64,000 nucleotides of DNA, taken from NCBI GenBank assembly GCA_002368605.1, contig DFEB01000069.1, positions 24,878 to 88,877 on the forward strand, in the 5' to 3' direction. Both the position numbers and the translations under genes were made by a program. The stretch is from Treponema sp. UBA3813. Lineage in GTDB: Bacteria; Spirochaetota; Spirochaetia; Treponematales; Treponemataceae. The notes below the pieces were generated by a model. It made no database searches, was not told where the DNA came from, and saw only the letters and a list, made by a program, of their open reading frames with translations. Of the stretch, positions 3,221 to 40,338 are shown one piece after another (positions within the stretch are counted from its first letter, which is position 1; each line of letters begins with the position of its first letter).

Positions 3221-3247
3221 ACAAGAAAAAACCGCCCGAAGGCGGCT
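3221..3247 (-). terminator. Rho-independent terminator of leuB
   Basis: On the minus strand a 5-bp GC stem CCGCC / GGCGG with a UUCG tetraloop is followed directly by a run of six T. It begins about 10 bases after the leuB stop codon. Confidence 0.9.
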
Positions 3248-3256
3248 CTATTGAAA

Positions 3257-4351
3257 TTATTTGTTGAGTTCTGCTACGACAAGCTCGCCCATCTTTTTTG
3301 TTCCGACGAGTTTGCCCTGAGCCTTGACTTCAGCCATGTGGCTTCCTGCGATGTCGCCTGTTCGCCAGCCTGCGTCGAGAACTGCGTTTACGGCGTCTTC
3401 GATTGCCTTTGCTTCTGTCTCAAGCTTGAATGAGTAGCGGAGAAGCATTGCGGCAGAAAGGATTGTTGCCAAGGGGTTAGCGATGTCTTTTCCTGCGATG
3501 TCCGGGGCTGAACCGTGGATTGGCTCGTAAAGACCTGGGCCTGTTCCATCGCCCAAAGAAGCTGAGGCCAGCATACCGATTGAGCCTGTTACCTGACTTG
3601 CCTCGTCAGTGAGGATGTCGCCGAACATGTTGCTTGTGGCGATGACATCGAACTGGCGTGGCGCACGAACCATCTGCATTGCGGCATTGTCGATGTAGAG
3701 AAAGTCAAGGGTGATGTCCTTGTATTCCTCGTGGACTTTCTCTGCCACAGCCCGCCAGAGTCGGCTTGAGTTGAGGATGTTTGCCTTGTCAACTACAGTG
3801 AGATGCTTTTTGCGGTTCTTCGCGAATTCAAAGCCCATGCGGACGATTCGCTCGATTTCTGCCCATGTGTATTTTTCTGTGTCCCAGGCTGTTTTTCCGT
3901 CTGCGCTAGTTCCGCGCTCACCGAAGTAGATGCCGCCTGTAAGCTCGCGGACAACGAGAATATCAAGACCCTCGCCGACGATTTCGTCTTTGAGAGGGCA
4001 GGCGTCTTTAAGCTGCTTCCACATAACAGCCGGGCGGAGGTTAGCGAAAACCTTCATGCCGCCGCGAAGACCAAGAAGTGCCTTTTCCGGGCGGATTTCC
4101 GGAGCAACATTGTCCCATTTTGGACCGCCGACGGCTCCGAGAAGAGTTGCGTCGCTGTTGAGACAGATGTCAAGCTGATCCTGCGGGAGTGGTTTTCCCC
4201 ATTTGTCGATGGCAGCTCCACCAGCGATTACATTTTTGTATGTCCATTTGTGGCCGTATTTTTTTGCGACAGCGTCAAGAACATTGACAGCCTCTGCAAC
4301 AACATCAGGACCGATTCCGTCACCGGGAATCAAAGCGATTGTTTTTTCCAT
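3257..4351 (-). CDS. leuB: 3-isopropylmalate dehydrogenase
   Basis: A full-length 364-residue isopropylmalate/isocitrate dehydrogenase-family enzyme that oxidatively decarboxylates 3-isopropylmalate with NAD+ in leucine biosynthesis. Visible signatures are [11 protein letters not shown] at the N-terminus, the substrate-site arginines in ANLRPA and [14 protein letters not shown], the lysine of [15 protein letters not shown], the metal-site aspartates in [12 protein letters not shown], and the cofactor loop [15 protein letters not shown], whose following residues fit the NAD-specific type. A Shine-Dalgarno AAGAGGAA precedes the ATG. It stands alone, without leuA, leuC or leuD in the window, has its own promoter at 4411-4439 and its own terminator. 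Confidence 0.96.
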
Positions 4352-13636: not shown

Positions 13637-15751
13637 ATGCTTGTGGTGCGCTTGATTCAATACCTCAAAAGCAGACCTCTTGCGCTTGTCTCTTTGGCTC
13701 TGCTTGCTCTTCTCTATCTTTTCATGATTTTTGCTGAATTCATCTCGCCCTATACGCCCACCCGCTCATTTGAGGAAGACACTTTTCATCCCTCAAACAT
13801 CGAACTTAGCGCAAAAGGCTTGGTCGCCAGAGAATACCGGGTCTTGAGCCCCATTACATGGCGGTATGCGAAAGTGAAGGGTAGCGAATTCCACCACAAA
13901 ATCCGCTTTTTCGTAAAAGGCGAGGAATACCGCCTCTTCGGCCTCATTCCAGTGAGCCGTCACCTTTTCGGCACCCTGCCGGACGAAAGCACCGGCGAAG
14001 TCTACCCGGTCTTTCTTTTCGGAGCGGACAATCTCGGTCGTGACCTTTTTTCCCGCATGGTCTACGGAAGTCGAATCTCCCTTACAATCGGCTTTGTTGC
14101 CAGCGCCATTTCCCTGATTCTGGCGATTCTCTTTGGCGGAATTGCAGGCTACTACGGCGGAAAACCTGACTGGTTTGTCATGCGTGTCTGTGAATTCCTC
14201 ATGCTCATACCGAGTTTATACCTTATCCTTTTCTTGCGTTCTATTTTAAACACGAAAATGGATTCCGGCACGGCCTACATGATAATCACGGTGATTCTTT
14301 CCCTGGTCGGCTGGCCTGGAACTGCCCGCACTCTCCGGGGCATGGTTCACTCAATCAAACGGGATGAATTCGTCCTTGACGCGGGCCTTGAAGGAATCCC
14401 TTCCACGGTGATTATTTTCGTCCACATCATCCCCCAGATTACCAGTCTCTTAATCGTCTCTACCACGCTGGCCATTCCGGGCTTTATCATGAGCGAGACC
14501 ACTCTTTCTTATCTGGGGCTTGGCATTTCCGATCCTGCCGTAAGCTGGGGCAGCCTCATAAACCGTGACATCTCCACTCTTTCAAACCTCAAGAATTTCC
14601 CATGGCTTCTTAGCCCGGTCTGGCTTTTGCTTTTAGTCACCCTGGCCTTCAACTTTTTAGGCGACGCTCTCCGGGACTATTTCGACCCCTATCATGTGAT
14701 TTTCCCTACATGGAAGAAAAAATCCACAGATTCACACAGATTAACACAGATTATAAAAAACAGTCAGGATGAAATCAGCGAGAATCCGCGTGAATCCGCG
14801 TCTGCTTCTTTCCTTTCCGTGGAGAATCTCAGGATTTCATTCACTGTCTTGCGAGGCTCTTCCCACACGATTATTCAGTCCGTGCGGGGAGTCTCTTTCC
14901 AGATGAATCGTGGCGAAATACTGGGAATCGTGGGCGAGTCGGGAAGCGGAAAATCTGTCACAACTACGGCGATTCCTGCCCTGCATCCCTCTAACGCCAC
15001 AGTTGAGGGAAAAATCTTTTTTGACGGCGTGGAGCTTACTTCCCTGAGCCAAAAAGAGATGCGCTCATACCGGGGCAAAAAAATCGGCCTGATTTTTCAG
15101 GAGCCGGGCAGAAGCTTTGACCCCCTGCAGAACATAGGCTCGGTCTTCTTCGAGACTTTCCGAAACAGCCAGCCTGAAATCAGTCGCGGCGAGGCAGACG
15201 AAAAAGCCGTGACTCTTCTTGACGAAGTGGGCCTGCCGGACCCCAAAAGCCGCCTTAAAAATTACCCCCACCAGTTCTCAGGGGGGCAGCTCCAGCGAAT
15301 CTCCATCGCCCTTTCCCTTGCCCAGGGCTGCCAGCTTCTGATTGCAGACGAGCCAACCACCGCCCTTGACGTTACGATTCAGGCTCAGATTGTCTCTTTG
15401 CTGGCAAATCTTCGAAAAACGCGAAATCTTTCTATTATATTCATCAGCCACAACATAGATTTGGTGGCAGGCCTTTGCGACAATATCATCGTCATGTACG
15501 GCGGTCTCATTATGGAGAAGGGAAGTAGCGAAGAAATCATGCGCCATGCAAAGCACCCTTACACCCAGGCTCTCCTTGCCTCTTCGCCGAAATTCGGCAG
15601 CCACTACAGCACAGAAAAATTAGTCTCAATTCCCGGCCGCGTCACGGATCCCGCTCACCCGGAGCCGGGCTGTCCTTTCGCGCCAAGATGCCAATACGCA
15701 AAAGATGAATGTAAAAAAAGCGGGATTTGTTACAAAATGGGGGAATCATGA
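13637..15751 (+). CDS. Peptide ABC transporter permease-ATPase fusion (OppC-OppD)
   Basis: A 704-residue fusion. Residues 1-~357 are an OppC/DppC permease: N-terminal helix, a GADNLGRDLFSRM segment, five more helices and an EAA loop (LDAGLEGIPSTVIIFVHIIP). Residues ~390-704 are an OppD ATPase with Walker A GESGSGKS, Q-loop FQEPGRSFDP, signature FSGGQLQRIS, Walker B LLIADEPTTALD and the C-terminal cysteine-rich tail (CPFAPRCQYAKDEC). The linker, residues ~362-389, is encoded by a CACAGATT repeat (14721-14802), so the fusion looks like a by-product of repeat insertion. An internal GTG at 14820 could in principle start a separate ATPase. The stop overlaps prs as ATGA. Confidence 0.9.
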   Translation: MLVVRLIQYLKSRPLALVSLALLALLYLFMIFAEFISPYTPTRSFEEDTFHPSNIELSAKGLVAREYRVLSPITWRYAKVKGSEFHHKIRFFVKGEEYRLFGLIPVSRHLFGTLPDESTGEVYPVFLFGADNLGRDLFSRMVYGSRISLTIGFVASAISLILAILFGGIAGYYGGKPDWFVMRVCEFLMLIPSLYLILFLRSILNTKMDSGTAYMIITVILSLVGWPGTARTLRGMVHSIKRDEFVLDAGLEGIPSTVIIFVHIIPQITSLLIVSTTLAIPGFIMSETTLSYLGLGISDPAVSWGSLINRDISTLSNLKNFPWLLSPVWLLLLVTLAFNFLGDALRDYFDPYHVIFPTWKKKSTDSHRLTQIIKNSQDEISENPRESASASFLSVENLRISFTVLRGSSHTIIQSVRGVSFQMNRGEILGIVGESGSGKSVTTTAIPALHPSNATVEGKIFFDGVELTSLSQKEMRSYRGKKIGLIFQEPGRSFDPLQNIGSVFFETFRNSQPEISRGEADEKAVTLLDEVGLPDPKSRLKNYPHQFSGGQLQRISIALSLAQGCQLLIADEPTTALDVTIQAQIVSLLANLRKTRNLSIIFISHNIDLVAGLCDNIIVMYGGLIMEKGSSEEIMRHAKHPYTQALLASSPKFGSHYSTEKLVSIPGRVTDPAHPEPGCPFAPRCQYAKDECKKSGICYKMGES
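14721..14802 (+). repeat. CACAGATT-type repeat forming the OppC-OppD linker
   Basis: Three CACAGATT units spaced 10 bases apart (14725-14752), an A-rich middle, then GAATCCGCGTGAATCCGCGT. The whole tract is open in the fusion frame and encodes a polar linker rich in S, T, E and N. Confidence 0.75.
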
Positions 15752-16852: not shown

Positions 16853-17911
16853 ATGTCTGATTTTATCATTCAAGCTGACCACTTAACAAAACGCTTCACT
16901 CTGGACGCGGGCTTTTTCGCCAAGCAAGACCGGTTTGTCTACGCGGTCAACGATGTCTCTTTCGGAATAGAGCGAGGGAAAACTTACGGTCTGGTTGGTG
17001 AATCCGGCTGTGGCAAAACCACCACGGCGAGAATGTTAGTTCGCATGTACAAGGCTGATGGCGGGGCAATCTGGTACAGTTCCAGCGAAAACAGGGCGCT
17101 CCTGCCGACAAGCGGCAGTCGGGCTATCCGCCCTTCCGCTGACGCTCCATTGCCTGCGGCAACTGGCGCCGCTCCTATCCCTAGCGCGTCAAGACAGAAT
17201 GTCCTTCTCTTTAATCGCAAGCAGCTCCGCTCTTACCGGGAAAAAATCAAATATGTCTTTCAAGATCCGTCCCGCTCCTTAAATCCCCGCATGACGGTTT
17301 TCAATATCCTTACCGCCAGCTACAAATATTCTTCAATTTGGCCGGGTAAAAAAGCCGCCTGGGAGGAAGCTGCCAAAATCATGGAAGAAGTTGGCCTTGA
17401 TCCCTTGGACTTGGAAAAACGACCCAGCGAATTTTCCGGCGGCCAGAGGCAGAGAATCTCTATTGCCCGCGCCCTTATCATGAAGCCCGAAGTCATGTTC
17501 TGTGACGAGGTGGTGAGTGCGCTGGATGTTTCCGTCCAGAGCCAGATTCTCAATCTTTTGCAGGATATTCGCCAGAAAAGAGGCATTTCCTTTCTTTTTA
17601 TAGCCCATGATTTACGGGTTTCCTGCTATTTCTGCGACACAATCGGCGTAATGTACCGCGGGCTTCTTGTGGAAGAAGCCCCTGCTCGTGATTTGTACCA
17701 GACAGCCGCCCATCCTTACACGAAACTTCTCTTTCAGGGAAGCGAAAGTTCTGGCGGTGAGTCAAAGGGCGAAGTTAAAACCACTCTTGAAAGCTTGCAC
17801 GGCTGCCCCTTCGCCCATCGTTGCCCCCATGCAAGCGAAAAATGCCGTTCAGAAATCCCTGAATGGAAGGAAATCAGTGCGGGTCACAAAGTTCGTTGTA
17901 ATCTCTGTTAA
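16853..17911 (+). CDS. Peptide ABC transporter ATP-binding protein, OppF type, with in-frame repeat insertion
   Basis: A 352-residue ATPase. Walker A GESGCGKTT lies at about residues 48-56, then Q-loop FQDPSRSLNP, signature FSGGQRQRIS, Walker B VMFCDE, H-loop FIAHD and the C-terminal CPFAHRC tail. Between Walker A and the Q-loop, residues ~80-113 (from RALLPTSGS to IPSASR) have no counterpart in OppF proteins and are encoded by a palindromic repeat (17097-17190); all motifs remain in frame. The Walker B region reads DEVVSALD instead of the usual DEPVSALD. The final codons and stop fall in a CACAGATT-type repeat. It should power peptide uptake with the OppD half of the upstream fusion. Confidence 0.9.
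   Translation: MSDFIIQADHLTKRFTLDAGFFAKQDRFVYAVNDVSFGIERGKTYGLVGESGCGKTTTARMLVRMYKADGGAIWYSSSENRALLPTSGSRAIRPSADAPLPAATGAAPIPSASRQNVLLFNRKQLRSYREKIKYVFQDPSRSLNPRMTVFNILTASYKYSSIWPGKKAAWEEAAKIMEEVGLDPLDLEKRPSEFSGGQRQRISIARALIMKPEVMFCDEVVSALDVSVQSQILNLLQDIRQKRGISFLFIAHDLRVSCYFCDTIGVMYRGLLVEEAPARDLYQTAAHPYTKLLFQGSESSGGESKGEVKTTLESLHGCPFAHRCPHASEKCRSEIPEWKEISAGHKVRCNLC
17097..17190 (+). repeat. Palindromic CGGGCTAT element, copy inside oppF
   Basis: A left hairpin CTGCCG / CGGCAG (17102-17118) is followed by the core CGGGCTATCCG (17120-17130) and ends in CTATCCCTAGCGCG (17175-17188). Core start and end are shared with copies at 32836-32941 and 38801-38911. Translated in the host frame it has no stop and gives a Pro/Ala/Ser-rich segment. 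Confidence 0.85.
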
Positions 17912-31372: not shown

Positions 31373-31401
31373 TTGAAAAATATATGAGTTTATTCTATCA
31401 T
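31373..31401 (+). promoter_or_regulatory. Promoter of the sodium symporter gene
   Basis: TTGAAA, 17-bp spacer, TATCAT: 5 of 6 matches in both hexamers. The start is expected near 31408, leaving a 24-base leader without Shine-Dalgarno. Confidence 0.6.
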
Positions 31402-31431
31402 GACTTTAGAAAATATGGTACAGTTTATTTT

Positions 31432-32835
31432 ATGGATAATACACAAAATCGTAACACTTTCTCTTCTTCATTTGGTTTTGTCCTGGCTGCGGCAGGAAGT
31501 GCTGTCGGTCTCGGCAATATCTGGCGTTTTCCTTATCTGGCTGCAAAAGATGGCGGAGGCTTGTTTCTGGTTATTTATTTGATTCTTGCCGTTACATTCG
31601 GTTTTGCCCTTCTTACTACGGAAGTTGCGATTGGCCGAAAAACAAAGCAGAGCCCTCTAACAGCCTACAAAAATCTTCATGCAAAATGGGGCTGGCTTGG
31701 TAAAATTGCCTGCATCATTCCCATGATGATTATGCCTTACTATTGTGTCATCGGTGGTTGGGTTTTAAAATATGCTGTGGCTTTCGTAACGGGACAGGGA
31801 GCAAGTGCGGCAGCTGACTCTTACTTTAGCGGTTTCATCACTTCGTCTGTTTCTCCTATTGTCTACACATTCATTTTCCTTTTTATTTCCTGCTATATTA
31901 TTTACCGCGGTGTCAAAAAAGGAATCGAAGCTCTTTCAAAAATCCTCATGCCGATTCTTGTCGTGCTTATCATAGGAATTTCAATTTTCGCCCTTACAAT
32001 GAGCCATACAGATGATTCTGGTAGTGTTCGCACAGGCTTGCAGGGACTCAAAATTTTCGTTATCCCTGATTTTACAGGTCTTACCCTCAACTCCTTCATG
32101 ATTACACTCATGGACGCCATGGGCCAGCTTTTCTACAGTCTGAGTGTCGCCATGGGTATTATGATTGCTTACGGCTCTTATGTCCGCGATGAGTCAAATC
32201 TCGTCAAGTCAATCAACAGAATCGAAATCTTTGATACGGCAGTGGCAATCCTTGCAGGTCTCATGATTATTCCGACCGTATTCGTCTTTATGGGACGGGA
32301 GGGCGTGAATGCCTCAGGTCCGGGCCTTATGTTCGTTGCAATGCCGAAAATCTTCGCACAGATGGGAATTGTCGGCACATTCGTAGGTGCTCTTTTCTTT
32401 ATCATGGTATTCTTCGCCGCGATAACAAGCTCCATCTCAATTCTGGAGGCAGTCGTCTCCAGCTTTATGGACGAATTTAAAATCTCCCGCCGTCGTGCGG
32501 TAGTGTATGAGGGGGGATTTGCGCTTCTTCTCGGAATCCTTGTTTGTCTTGGCTACAATGCCCTTTATTTCGAGGTAAAACTTCCCAACGGTGTCACAGC
32601 TCAGATTCTTGATATCATGGACTACATCAGCAACAACATTCTCATGCCGATTGTTTCTATTGGGACTTGTCTGCTCATTGGCTGGATTTTAAAGCCAAAA
32701 ACGGTCATTGAGGAAGCCTGCAAAAACGGCGAGAATTTCATCCGTCACAACTTGTATGTATTCATGGTGAAATTTGCCGCTCCCTTCCTTCTTGTGATTT
32801 TGTTCTTGAAGAGTCTTGGAATCCTTAATTTTTAG
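31432..32835 (+). CDS. Sodium:neurotransmitter symporter family (SNF) transporter
   Basis: A 467-residue inner-membrane transporter of the LeuT fold with about 11-12 helices. TM1 carries the substrate/sodium motif GFVLAAAGSAVGLGNIWRFPYL, including the unwound GNIWRFPY stretch; TM6 (AMGQLFYSLSVAMGIMIAYGSY) is equally typical. Bacterial members bring in amino acids or related amines with Na+, here possibly using the gradient handled by the NhaC antiporter. The ATG 31432 starts the conserved N-terminus; a reading from 31384 would start at or before the predicted transcription start. No terminator follows, only the GC-rich hairpin of the palindromic element. Confidence 0.93.
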   Translation: MDNTQNRNTFSSSFGFVLAAAGSAVGLGNIWRFPYLAAKDGGGLFLVIYLILAVTFGFALLTTEVAIGRKTKQSPLTAYKNLHAKWGWLGKIACIIPMMIMPYYCVIGGWVLKYAVAFVTGQGASAAADSYFSGFITSSVSPIVYTFIFLFISCYIIYRGVKKGIEALSKILMPILVVLIIGISIFALTMSHTDDSGSVRTGLQGLKIFVIPDFTGLTLNSFMITLMDAMGQLFYSLSVAMGIMIAYGSYVRDESNLVKSINRIEIFDTAVAILAGLMIIPTVFVFMGREGVNASGPGLMFVAMPKIFAQMGIVGTFVGALFFIMVFFAAITSSISILEAVVSSFMDEFKISRRRAVVYEGGFALLLGILVCLGYNALYFEVKLPNGVTAQILDIMDYISNNILMPIVSIGTCLLIGWILKPKTVIEEACKNGENFIRHNLYVFMVKFAAPFLLVILFLKSLGILNF

Positions 32836-32941
32836 GGCGTAACCGCCGCTTTGCGGCGGTCGGGCTATTCAGGGTTCCGCGCTTCCGCGCTTCATTCTTC
32901 CGCTCGCTTCAGAACGGCTTTGCCGCCCTTCCTATCCCTTA
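32836..32941. repeat. Palindromic CGGGCTAT element, copy between symporter gene and sufU
   Basis: An 8-bp stem ACCGCCGC / GCGGCGGT with a TTT loop (32842-32860), then CGGGCTATTC, GTTCCGC, GCTTCATT, and an end CCTATCCCTTACGC. It fills the whole gap. The sufU stop codon (TAA on minus, 32939-32941) lies in the element's end sequence. Confidence 0.85.
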
Positions 32942-33412
32942 CGCAGTCGGGCAGTCAGGATGTGCTGCCGATGCTGATGCTGTCTCTTTTTTGAGTCCAA
33001 GCATTTCCCGCATGGTTCGCCAGCCTAATTCTGCGCATTTGACTCTGGCTGGCATGTGCTGGATTTCCCTTAATGCGCTGGCTTCGTCAAGTTCTTCTAT
33101 TTCTTCGTCGGTGACACTTCCCTGAATCATTCCCATAAAGATTTCGCACAGGCGCAAGGCTTCTTTTTCGTCTTTACCGATGATTAAATCAAGCATCATG
33201 TCGCAGCTTGCCTGAGAAATGGCGCAGCCACTTCCAGTGAAGGCACCGTCAGAGATTTTGCCGTCCTGAGTTTTTAGGGTGAGTGTGATGTTGTCGCCGC
33301 AGCTGGGATTTACGCCCTGTAGAGAAAGATTTGCCCCTGCTAAATCACTTTTATGGGCGGGATTGATATTGTGTTCGTTTAAAATTTCGCGATAAAGTTC
33401 TTTAAGTTCCAT
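32939..33412 (-). CDS. sufU: SufU-type iron-sulfur cluster assembly protein
   Basis: A 157-residue SufU/IscU-fold protein. The three cysteines of the site are in NPSCGDNITL, TGSGCAISQASC and ARVKCAELGW, each in the usual context; the loop between the second and third cysteine is of SufU length. SufU is a zinc-dependent sulfurtransferase partner of SufS, or scaffold, in the SUF pathway. It stands apart from sufCBD (38030-41466), and no sufS is in the window. The last residues (CPTA) and the stop arise at the edge of a palindromic repeat, so the C-terminus may have been altered by it. Confidence 0.92.
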   Translation of the reverse strand: MELKELYREILNEHNINPAHKSDLAGANLSLQGVNPSCGDNITLTLKTQDGKISDGAFTGSGCAISQASCDMMLDLIIGKDEKEALRLCEIFMGMIQGSVTDEEIEELDEASALREIQHMPARVKCAELGWRTMREMLGLKKETASASAAHPDCPTA

Positions 33413-38029: not shown

Positions 38030-38770
38030 ATGGCTAATTTACTTGAAATTCAGAATCTGAATGTTGATATAGAAAAAAAACATGTCATTGACGGCGTGAA
38101 TCTTCTGGTTAATCCCGGCGAAACCCATGTCCTTATGGGGCCAAACGGAGCGGGAAAATCCACCTTGGGCTACACAATCATGGGAAATCCCCGCTACACA
38201 GTATCTGGCGGAAAGATTTTCTTTGACGGCGAGGACATCACCGAACTGGGCGCGGACAAGCGGGCTGCCAAAGGCATTTTCCTTTCTTTTCAGGCTCCCC
38301 TTGAGGTTCCGGGCATTCCTTTGGAATCATTTATCCGCACGGCCTTGCAGCAGAAGACCGGCGAGCGGGTCAAACTCTTCCAGTTCCAGAAGCAGCTCAA
38401 AGAGACCATGAAGCTTTTGAACATGGACGAAAGCTATGCCAGCCGAGACCTGAATGTGGGATTTTCCGGCGGCGAGCGCAAAAAGAGCGAAATCTTGCAG
38501 CTTCTCATGCTTTCTCCCAAACTCGCCATCCTTGACGAGACTGATTCCGGCCTTGACGTTGACGCGGTTCGCACGGTCTCAAAGGGAATCGAAGAATACC
38601 AGAAGCGCATGAACGGCGCCCTTATCATCATCACCCACTCAACGAAAATCCTTGAAAGCCTCAAAGTGGACAAGACCCATATTCTGGTCAAAGGCAAAAT
38701 CATCAAGGAAGGGGACGGAAGTCTTGTTGAGGAAATCAATGCAAATGGTTTCGAGCAGTTTATAAGTTAG
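38030..38770 (+). CDS. sufC: Fe-S assembly ATPase SufC
   Basis: A 246-residue ABC-type ATPase of the SUF complex: Walker A MGPNGAGKST, Q-loop FLSFQAPLEVPG with the SufC-specific extension, signature FSGGERKKSEI, Walker B LAILDETDSGLD and H-loop IITHST. It drives conformational changes of SufB-SufD during cluster assembly. It is first in the operon sufC-sufB-sufD; a palindromic repeat (38801-38911) separates it from sufB. Confidence 0.97.
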   Translation: MANLLEIQNLNVDIEKKHVIDGVNLLVNPGETHVLMGPNGAGKSTLGYTIMGNPRYTVSGGKIFFDGEDITELGADKRAAKGIFLSFQAPLEVPGIPLESFIRTALQQKTGERVKLFQFQKQLKETMKLLNMDESYASRDLNVGFSGGERKKSEILQLLMLSPKLAILDETDSGLDVDAVRTVSKGIEEYQKRMNGALIIITHSTKILESLKVDKTHILVKGKIIKEGDGSLVEEINANGFEQFIS

Positions 38771-38800
38771 GAATTAGGAGTGAGGAGTTAGAAGTTGGGG

Positions 38801-38911
38801 GCTGCCGCTGTCCTTCGACTTCGCTCATGGAACAGCGGCCGGGCTATCCGTGGTTCCGCTAACGCTTCATTCCTTCGGAACAGCTTCGCTGCCACTACTA
38901 TCCCTAGCCCG
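38801..38911. repeat. Palindromic CGGGCTAT element, copy between sufC and sufB
   Basis: Nested inverted repeats: GCCGCTGT / ACAGCGGC (38804-38839), then an outer pair CGGGCTA (38839-38845) / TAGCCCG around an inner GTTCCG / CGGAAC. It is the longest of the three copies and lies wholly within the operon, so it should be transcribed and may act as an mRNA structure. Confidence 0.85.
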
Positions 38912-38931: not shown

Positions 38932-40338
38932 ATGGAAAACGAAAAAGATAACATAAAAAGCATAGATTCTTCTCCCTACGACTTCCGCTATGAGGAAAAG
39001 GGCTTTTACCGCAACAAGGCTGGCCTCACGTCAGAGATTGTCGCAAAACTTTCCGACGACAAAAACGACCCTGAATGGATGCGTGAATTCCGCCAGAATG
39101 CGCTTAAAATTTACAATGAGCTTCGCGTGCCTGAGTGGGGGCCGGACATCTCTGGTCTCAACATTGACGAAATCGCCACTTACGTGCGCCCCAACACAAA
39201 AATGCAGGGCAAGTGGGAAGATGTTCCCGAAGACATTAAAGACACTTTTGAAAAGCTGGGCATTCCTGAGGCAGAGCGCACTTCTCTTGCGGGAGTGGGC
39301 GCCCAGTATGACTCTGAGCTTGTCTACCACAACTTGCAGGAAGAAGTGGCCAAGCAGGGCGTAATCTACACTGATTTTGAAAGCTCTCTCCGCGGCCCTT
39401 ATGCCGACATGGTAAAAGAGCATTTTATGCAGCTGGTAAAGCCAAATGACCACAAATTCGCGGCCCTGCATGGGGCTGTCTGGTCCGGCGGCTCCTTTGT
39501 TTATGTTCCCAAGAATGTAAAGGTTGAAATCCCCCTGCAAAGCTACTTCCGTCTGAACGCGAAAGGGGCGGGACAGTTCGAGCATACCCTCATTATCGTT
39601 GACGAAGGCGCTGACCTGCACTTTATCGAGGGCTGCTCGGCTCCAAAATACAATGTGGCAAATCTTCACGCCGGCTGCGTCGAGCTTTATGTAAAAAAAG
39701 GCGCACACTTGCGCTACTCAACCGTGGAAAACTGGTCTAAGAACATGTACAACCTCAACACCAAGAGGGCGCGTGTAGAAGAGGGCGGCCGGGTCGAGTG
39801 GGTCTCAGGCTCTTTCGGAAGCCACATTTCCTATCTTTACCCCCAGAGCGACTTGATTGGCCGGGGAGCCAGGGCTGAATTCACTGGCGTTACTTTTGCC
39901 GGCGAAGGACAGAACCTTGACACGGGAGCCAAAATGGTTCACCTCGCCCCTCAAACGACGAGCGTAATCACCACGAAATCTCTCTCAAAATCCGGCGGCA
40001 TCTCAACCTACCGAAGCGCAATCTACATCGGAAAAGAGGCAAAGGGCAGCAAGGCCAGCGTTTCCTGCGAGAGCCTTATGCTCGACAACATTTCCCGAAG
40101 CGACACAATTCCCGCCATGGACATTCACACTGATGACTGTGACGTTGGCCACGAGGCAAAAATCGGCCGAATCTCAAACGACGCGATTTTCTATTTGATG
40201 AGCCGGGGAATCTCTGAGGAAGAGGCAAGGACAATGATTGTAAGCGGATTTGCAAATCCTGTCTCAAAAGAGCTTCCCCTTGAATATGCCGTTGAGATGA
40301 ATAATCTGATTCGCCTTGAAATGAAAGGTTCGCTGTAA
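38932..40338 (+). CDS. sufB: Fe-S assembly scaffold SufB
   Basis: A 468-residue beta-helical SufB. The N-terminal part has PEWGPDISGL and the ESSLRGPYADMVKEHFM region; the core reads AALHGAVWSGGSFVYVPKNV, HFIEGCSAP (with the active cysteine), and the C-terminus DIHTDDCDVGHEAKIGRISNDAIFYLMSRGI, where histidine and cysteine help hold the nascent cluster. It forms SufBC2D with its neighbours. There is no clear Shine-Dalgarno before the ATG (GGTTGGACTATT); the structured repeat just upstream may influence its translation. Confidence 0.97.
   Translation: MENEKDNIKSIDSSPYDFRYEEKGFYRNKAGLTSEIVAKLSDDKNDPEWMREFRQNALKIYNELRVPEWGPDISGLNIDEIATYVRPNTKMQGKWEDVPEDIKDTFEKLGIPEAERTSLAGVGAQYDSELVYHNLQEEVAKQGVIYTDFESSLRGPYADMVKEHFMQLVKPNDHKFAALHGAVWSGGSFVYVPKNVKVEIPLQSYFRLNAKGAGQFEHTLIIVDEGADLHFIEGCSAPKYNVANLHAGCVELYVKKGAHLRYSTVENWSKNMYNLNTKRARVEEGGRVEWVSGSFGSHISYLYPQSDLIGRGARAEFTGVTFAGEGQNLDTGAKMVHLAPQTTSVITTKSLSKSGGISTYRSAIYIGKEAKGSKASVSCESLMLDNISRSDTIPAMDIHTDDCDVGHEAKIGRISNDAIFYLMSRGISEEEARTMIVSGFANPVSKELPLEYAVEMNNLIRLEMKGSL

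Follow-up and report, generated by a model that had tools for sequence, protein, structure and literature searches.

Rickettsia palindromic elements (RPEs) were reportedly described by Ogata in 2000 and 2002, and palindromic elements are also described from Wolbachia. We know of no transposase for RPEs. In the available passages of PMC2229807 and PMC3733652, RPEs and the Wolbachia elements are protein-coding palindromes, and CGTC is said to end the RPEs of R. conorii. A second class comprises the REPs, or GTAG- and CGTC-tagged palindromes, which are 20-40 bp long and accompany RAYT transposases; the available part of PMC3733652 also reports CGTC repeats from Bacteroidetes and Spirochaetes and, in several species, REPs located within genes. 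A third class is that of bacterial MITEs with translated insertions, namely NEMIS, ERIC/RU and YPAL in passages of PMC2229807, and the QMITE of Coxiella in a passage of PMC5896051. Going by these excerpts (PMC2229807, PMC3733652, PMC5896051), Rickettsia and Wolbachia are the main known sources of in-frame palindromic elements, and other bacteria supply scattered cases.

The window examined here is a stretch of 64,000 nucleotides from Treponema sp. UBA3813 (contig DFEB01000069.1). It encodes an oppF-type ABC ATPase (16853..17911, plus strand; 352 aa; Pfam ABC_tran E 4.6e-30, oligo_HPY E 7.7e-13), upstream of which lie a fused OppC-OppD gene (13637-15751) and a phosphoribosyltransferase-like gene. 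A first-pass annotation had placed a palindromic repeat inside OppF at 17097-17190. The tract is indeed there, but its terminal stem puts the bounds at 17094-17187 (plus strand, 94 bp), and its core (17119-17187) scores 74.3 bits (E 2.8e-18) with our covariance model. As the annotation had also held, its place is within an intact ATPase, after Walker A and before the Q-loop: the element makes up codons 81-112, has no stop, and together with its edge codons (17093-17188) encodes RALLPTSGSRAIRPSADAPLPAATGAAPIPSA. Walker A (16997-17023), the Q-loop VFQDP (17255-17269), the signature (17435-17455) and Walker B (17492-17509) are intact, the AHD motif is also present, and the Pfam domain match is interrupted by the insert and resumes beyond it. 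The proposal that these residues are absent from OppF proteins agrees with the comparison to the solved chain Rv1281c (8j5q_D), in which 10 residues stand opposite 47 (query residues 74-120, as delimited by the ends of the local alignment). The observation is confirmed: a structured, dispersed palindromic repeat has one of its copies here, in frame within an intact OppF.

We compared the OppF site across 63 loci encoding OppF relatives. Six of them (L017, L018, L019, L020, L030 and L066) carry the element inside OppF, in the same loop and in frame. In these copies the whole structure of 94-106 bases is present, the terminal stem is compensated, and the covariance model returns 71-83 bits. The site is empty in L021-L029 and, by the model, in the remaining loci; close OppF relatives thus provide the empty sites that the annotation had suggested looking for, and the extra residues, which it expected to be missing from unrelated genera, are confined among the 63 loci to a group of Treponema relatives. 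At the site in L024, 13 bases repeat the beginning of the L020 element exactly and look like a remnant of a deleted copy. The loop of L019 (3001-4101) also contains a second palindromic repeat, which encodes VVEPVETT and adjoins the first element, likewise in frame.

When a tree of 22 OppF proteins was built without the loop, the presence of the element needs four changes, two of which are forced by well-supported branches. The OppF copies of the window, L018 and L019 resemble one another. The L020 copy has its nearest kin outside this site, the best same-site copy ranking 31st of 79 in a set without L030, whose element is identical to it. Because the copies at the OppF site are not all one element, the site was hit or overwritten more than once, with at least two arrivals or replacements. 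Pairs of identical elements were also found in diverged genes. Those of the window and L017 match at 94/94 positions within genes that match at 764/900, and the element lies inside a tract (17040-17339) that matches at 289/300, which suggests recombination. Those of L020 and L030 (both at 3227-3329) match at 103/103 positions within genes that match at 788/900, with divergence beginning at the right element boundary. Identical elements in diverged genes would in any case not be the outcome of simple neutral drift after one insertion.

Such identity could also arise if the inserted peptide had been recruited for a function, for example as a regulatory or interaction loop, and were kept by selection, and the recurrence of the element at the OppF loop and at the adjacent OppC-OppD linker in many genomes would fit that history as well. 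We regard recruitment as unlikely. The identity covers synonymous sites, and the tract of about 300 bases shared by the window and L017 points to recombination or recent copying; moreover, the element is patchy on the OppF tree, and differing sequences occupy the same loop.

The consensus layout of the repeat has a terminal stem (P1), a hairpin on the left (P2) and a third, long stem (P3) around hairpins P4, P5 and P6. In the OppF copy, all on the plus strand, the P1 arm GCGCT (17096..17100) pairs with AGCGC (17183..17187), for which other copies have the compensated versions GCGCA/TGCGC, GCACT/AGTGC, GGGCT/AGCCC and GTGCT/AGCAC. P2 (CTGCCG...CGGCAG, 17102..17118) varies from copy to copy. The strands of P3 carry the cores GGGCTATCCGCCC (17121..17133) and CCGCTCCTATCCC (17169..17181), with two P3 pairs mismatched, and P5 is the hairpin TTGCC-TGC-GGCAA (17150..17162). 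The hairpins of some copies (L009, L088, L093, L102, L146, L150, L153 and L154) contain nested or adjoining palindromes of their own: TGTCATTGCC...GGCAATCCCAT, GGTGGTTTCGATACGG...CAACCACC and GAGCAC...GTGCTCG.

We drew this structure ourselves from a MAFFT alignment of the core in 15 copies, a first alignment of whole elements having misaligned the variable left hairpin. In the core alignment, 98.8% of 244 cells are paired, with 34 double changes and no one-sided changes, in the same copies from which the structure was drawn; changes on both sides occur in 9 of 17 pairs, and slid controls pair at 43-59%. A larger set, in which 80 matches at 78 chosen loci amount to 78 distinct copies (top-scoring and with an alignment fitted to the model), gave 99.5% of 1298 cells paired, compared with 45-56% in slid controls; 204 cells were changed on both sides, 2 were G-U and 6 were unpaired. 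The model, R1, covers the core only, and P1 lies outside it. The fifth P1 pair is complementary in 49 of 53 copies that had been located by requiring four of the five P1 pairs; these copies measure 78-213 bp, with a median of 101. The covariation supports the stems of the repeat.

The OppF copy is a poor representative of its own fold. Two of the six unpaired cells fall in it, and four of the six in in-gene copies, although the excess of non-Watson-Crick cells in in-gene copies (4/317, compared with 4/981 in other copies) is not significant (p 0.11). When folded as single-strand DNA, four copies other than the OppF copy reached z of -2.17 to -2.69, and the two other window copies show a clear consensus fold (DNA z -2.58 and -2.17). 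The OppF copy reached only -0.99 as DNA (31 of 200 shuffles were as good) and -0.58 as RNA. Two of its P3 pairs are gone, and its fold hardly surpasses that of shuffled sequence.

Within the window, the covariance model found exactly three copies at E<=1, each at E<=1.1e-16, two of the three being in the model seed. The second copy (32835..32944, plus strand) lies between convergent ORFs (31384-32835 and 32939-33412), filling the gap of the pair and touching both ORF ends, and the third (38797..38910, plus strand) lies between an ORF ending at 38770 and one starting at 38932. The annotation had derived the kinship of these three tracts from shared core ends. The structural model bears out the kinship, whereas short core words, searched with one or two mismatches, occur in the window no more often than chance would give, and an exact pattern with both core ends had no match, the 3' core of the OppF copy reading CCTATCC.

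Used as a DNA query against the host genome, the tract returned itself and eight further places. The covariance search that the annotation had advised, in which a lack of further copies would have counted against it, returned at least 51 matches at E<=0.1 and at least 44 at E<=1e-4, with 150 of 872 first-look candidates scored. By crude ORF calls on 50 of the 51, 26 copies are intergenic, 19 lie over an ORF edge and 5 lie inside an ORF. Across the genus, 124 of 146 genomes have a match at E<=1e-6. Across the phylum, 14 of 198 do, of which 11 belong to the same genus, two to another genus of the family and one to another family. In the phylum of a genome titled Bacteroidetes, a match reaches E<=1e-5 in at least 16 of 395 genomes, for each of which 12 candidates were scored; eight matches read from that phylum have both core ends and a P3 that pairs by eye, and four of the eight have an exact 4-base P1 arm no more than 70 bases upstream. 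Plasmid and phage collections contained no match to one copy, and viral contigs no match to one pattern.

Could the repeat instead be a structured RNA element, such as an mRNA stabiliser, an attenuator or an RNase III target (roles that have been put forward for REP and NEMIS repeats), which is also kept within the oppF message? Its conserved multi-helix structure would suit such a role, as would the 45 of 50 host-genome copies that are intergenic or at ORF edges by the crude calls, and the position of the two other window copies at or just past gene ends. Yet G-U occurs in merely 2 of 1298 cells, though selection at the RNA level tolerates G-U. Because G-U pairs are so nearly lacking, in copies that were chosen for high scores, the pairing appears to matter in DNA rather than in RNA. 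In addition, the OppF copy is without two P3 pairs and without its fold, and Rfam held no family match, neither at the gathering cut-off (12 sources, which gave only a tRNA) nor at E up to 10 (401 bases). We consider an RNA element slightly less probable still than recruitment of the peptide.

A search for copies in coding frames, also suggested by the annotation, uncovered further in-frame hosts. The accepted hosts are OppF, OppC-OppD, RsuA, an RluA-like protein, a WYL regulator, LigT-Vsr, FeoA-FeoB, a UvrD-like helicase and one protein with no Pfam hit. The OppC-OppD linker (14702..14812, plus strand) is empty in the window and holds the element in frame in relatives, where the insert lies between Pfam domains. 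It is filled in L021 and L025, and in at least 11 of 146 genomes of the genus (G002, G004, G020, which contains L021, G038, G051, G061, G063, G078, G090, G101 and G114); these counts are lower bounds from a peptide search that favoured one reading frame and missed the window OppF copy. In the host genome, three of the five ORF-internal copies were accepted: those in OppF, in an RsuA-like synthase (L148) and in the RluA-like protein (L150), where the element is on the opposite strand and before the domain. The element is likewise on the opposite strand in the FeoA-FeoB linker (L134), between the domains, and in the UvrD-like helicase (L137), where the domain match resumes after the insert, as it does in RsuA. 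The match stops at the insert in the WYL regulator, found in two genomes (L131 and L205; profile 53/70), and in the LigT domain of the LigT-Vsr fusion (L202; profile 129/152). The remaining host is a long protein in two genomes (L196 and L197), of which L196 was scanned. This protein (L196, 1313-3883) also contains a repeated HAEQTNC and a HAELVSAS peptide, which look like a further translated repeat.

Filled and empty sites were compared for three hosts, OppF, OppC-OppD and RsuA. The empty RsuA site is in an orthologue that is 95% identical over residues 3-186; the sequence next to the element in the filled gene is different as well. In other Treponema, repeated peptides of the type SPKGSALKN / SPKGQ..PLKSPK are found in the OppC-OppD linker (L048, L049 and L058) and in the RsuA loop (L220 and L222), and several repeat families seem, from such peptides, to use the same variable loops. 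Several candidate hosts were set aside by our own judgement: in L199 and L204 the element precedes the likely start; L200, L203, L206 and L207 were weak or chance cases; L144 and L153 were spurious ORFs; L124 and L125 were open frames with no recognised gene; and in L201 the CarB frame ends after the element. In this last case (693-1640), the frame of the carbamoyl phosphate synthase large chain ends shortly after the copy, which reflects either a disrupted gene or a misassembly driven by the repeat.

The presence of the same element in frame in unrelated proteins counts against an old, native variable loop of OppF whose likeness to the repeats would stem from convergence or from a shared GC-rich, Ala/Pro-rich bias. 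The site does vary in length and sequence among aligned Treponema OppF proteins, and the window, L018 and L019 copies are alike. However, the OppF copies preserve the complete structure with its compensated terminal stem, and the L020 copy has closer matches at other places than among the remaining OppF copies of the comparison, which makes a native loop very improbable. Hardly credible at all is an assembly artefact in which a misjoin at the repeat put the element into oppF: many of the genomes are MAGs, prone to breaks or misjoins at repeats, as the CarB frame of L201 may illustrate, but seven OppF genes, from differently titled isolates, carry the element with the frame kept on both sides.

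We asked whether the element itself is built to code. Copies have 2.75 open frames, compared with 2.51 in shuffled copies, and because the frames are about as open as in the shuffles we dropped the idea. Nor are in-frame copies always of length 1 mod 3, another idea that was dropped: of 18 measured, 12 are at 1, five at 0 and one at 2, three more in-frame copies having been excluded as lacking an exact terminal stem. In 43 copies outside the in-frame set, T occupies 78 of 129 positions immediately upstream (background 0.32), and the first downstream base is A in 26 and C in none. No consistent target duplication was found in 53 copies, the strongest offset (z 3.5) resting on 2 of the 53. An intergenic filled/empty pair, the window and L017, differs by 92 inserted bases, which are a 91-base element and one A. 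This asymmetric insertion with no duplication recalls single-strand transposition.

A search for Y1_Tnp, the sole enzyme family sought as a mobilising gene, found none in the host genome, which is 88.5% complete. Across the genus, 40 of 146 genomes encode Y1_Tnp: 10 of the 31 with at least 20 matches and 30 of the other 115 (Fisher p 0.50; matches per genome are lower bounds). Its presence is thus unrelated to copy number, and mobilisation by Y1/RAYT finds no support as a general explanation, while being possible in itself.

Our preferred reading is that a dispersed DNA repeat lands in genes and is tolerated where frame and fold are kept, and we think it very likely to be right. A non-coding multi-hairpin repeat would multiply as DNA in Treponema genomes and would at times land inside genes. 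An insertion would survive where it adds whole codons, has no stop and spares the fold, as in a surface loop or an interdomain linker. The host gene would then carry an extra low-complexity peptide rich in Ala, Pro, Ser and Arg, which is not a designed product of the element. We infer that the host proteins are produced and remain functional with this peptide in place, that the peptide is about neutral, and that tolerance in loops and linkers best explains survival inside genes; the OppF loop is presumably disordered and tolerant of the insert. The manner of spread is more conjectural: it may proceed by a single-stranded or cruciform form of the DNA, through some enzyme and with no target duplication, perhaps with a preference for T-rich sequence directly before the left end of the element. 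More tentatively still, and with the odds against it, the repeat could belong to an undescribed family of cruciform or single-strand mobile repeats, acting at the DNA level and common to Spirochaetota and Bacteroidota. Its pairing would change without passing through G-U, by arm-to-arm copying or folded-strand transposition, and it would keep re-hitting or overwriting the same protein loops. If so, palindromic repeats would constantly supply the spirochaetes of gut and rumen with new loops.

Two questions should be testable here, given many sequenced Treponema species and empty and filled sites in one gene: how a repeat moves with no recognised transposase, and whether conserved proteins gain new loops through repeat insertion. 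A practical warning also follows: where a protein of this kind is annotated with an extra loop, the loop may be repeat DNA. The annotation knew of no equivalent in Treponema, and the family was recognised neither in Rfam nor among the papers listed by literature searches (by core words, Treponema palindromic elements and peptides; most subscription papers and all preprints were outside the scope).

How, then, does the element compare with the known classes? Like the REPs in the available passages, it is a dispersed palindrome, mainly intergenic and sometimes within ORFs, and CTAC (GTAG on the other strand) borders its inner stem in 43 of 53 copies. It departs, however, from the definition in those passages, by which REPs are 20-40 bp long and have GTAG or CGTC at the end: it measures 78-213 bp (median 101), its GTAG is internal rather than terminal, and, while RAYT transposases accompany REPs, no Y1 gene was found in the 88.5%-complete host genome and such genes show no correlation with copy number in the genus. 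Like MITEs, as far as their accessible descriptions go, it is a small repeat with complementary ends that is sometimes fused in frame to genes. DDE-type MITEs are recognised by target-site duplication and conserved terminal inverted repeats; here duplication is not consistent, the sequence of the 5-bp terminal stem differs between copies, and no parent insertion sequence was found, Y1_Tnp alone having been sought. In its behaviour the element resembles RPEs, as the annotation had supposed. The host phylum differs, the Treponema element has multiple hairpins and a covarying 5-bp terminal stem, and the CGTC given for R. conorii RPEs in the passages available is found, at any position, in just 11 of 53 copies. 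Like RPEs, it is a self-complementary element of about 100-150 bp that is found both between genes and in frame inside conserved proteins. It is repeated in many copies, and its in-frame insertions lie in conserved, apparently intact genes and, for OppF, OppC-OppD and RsuA, are absent from orthologues. A structurally different family thus appears to do in rumen and gut Treponema, with nine accepted host proteins, what RPEs do in Rickettsia.
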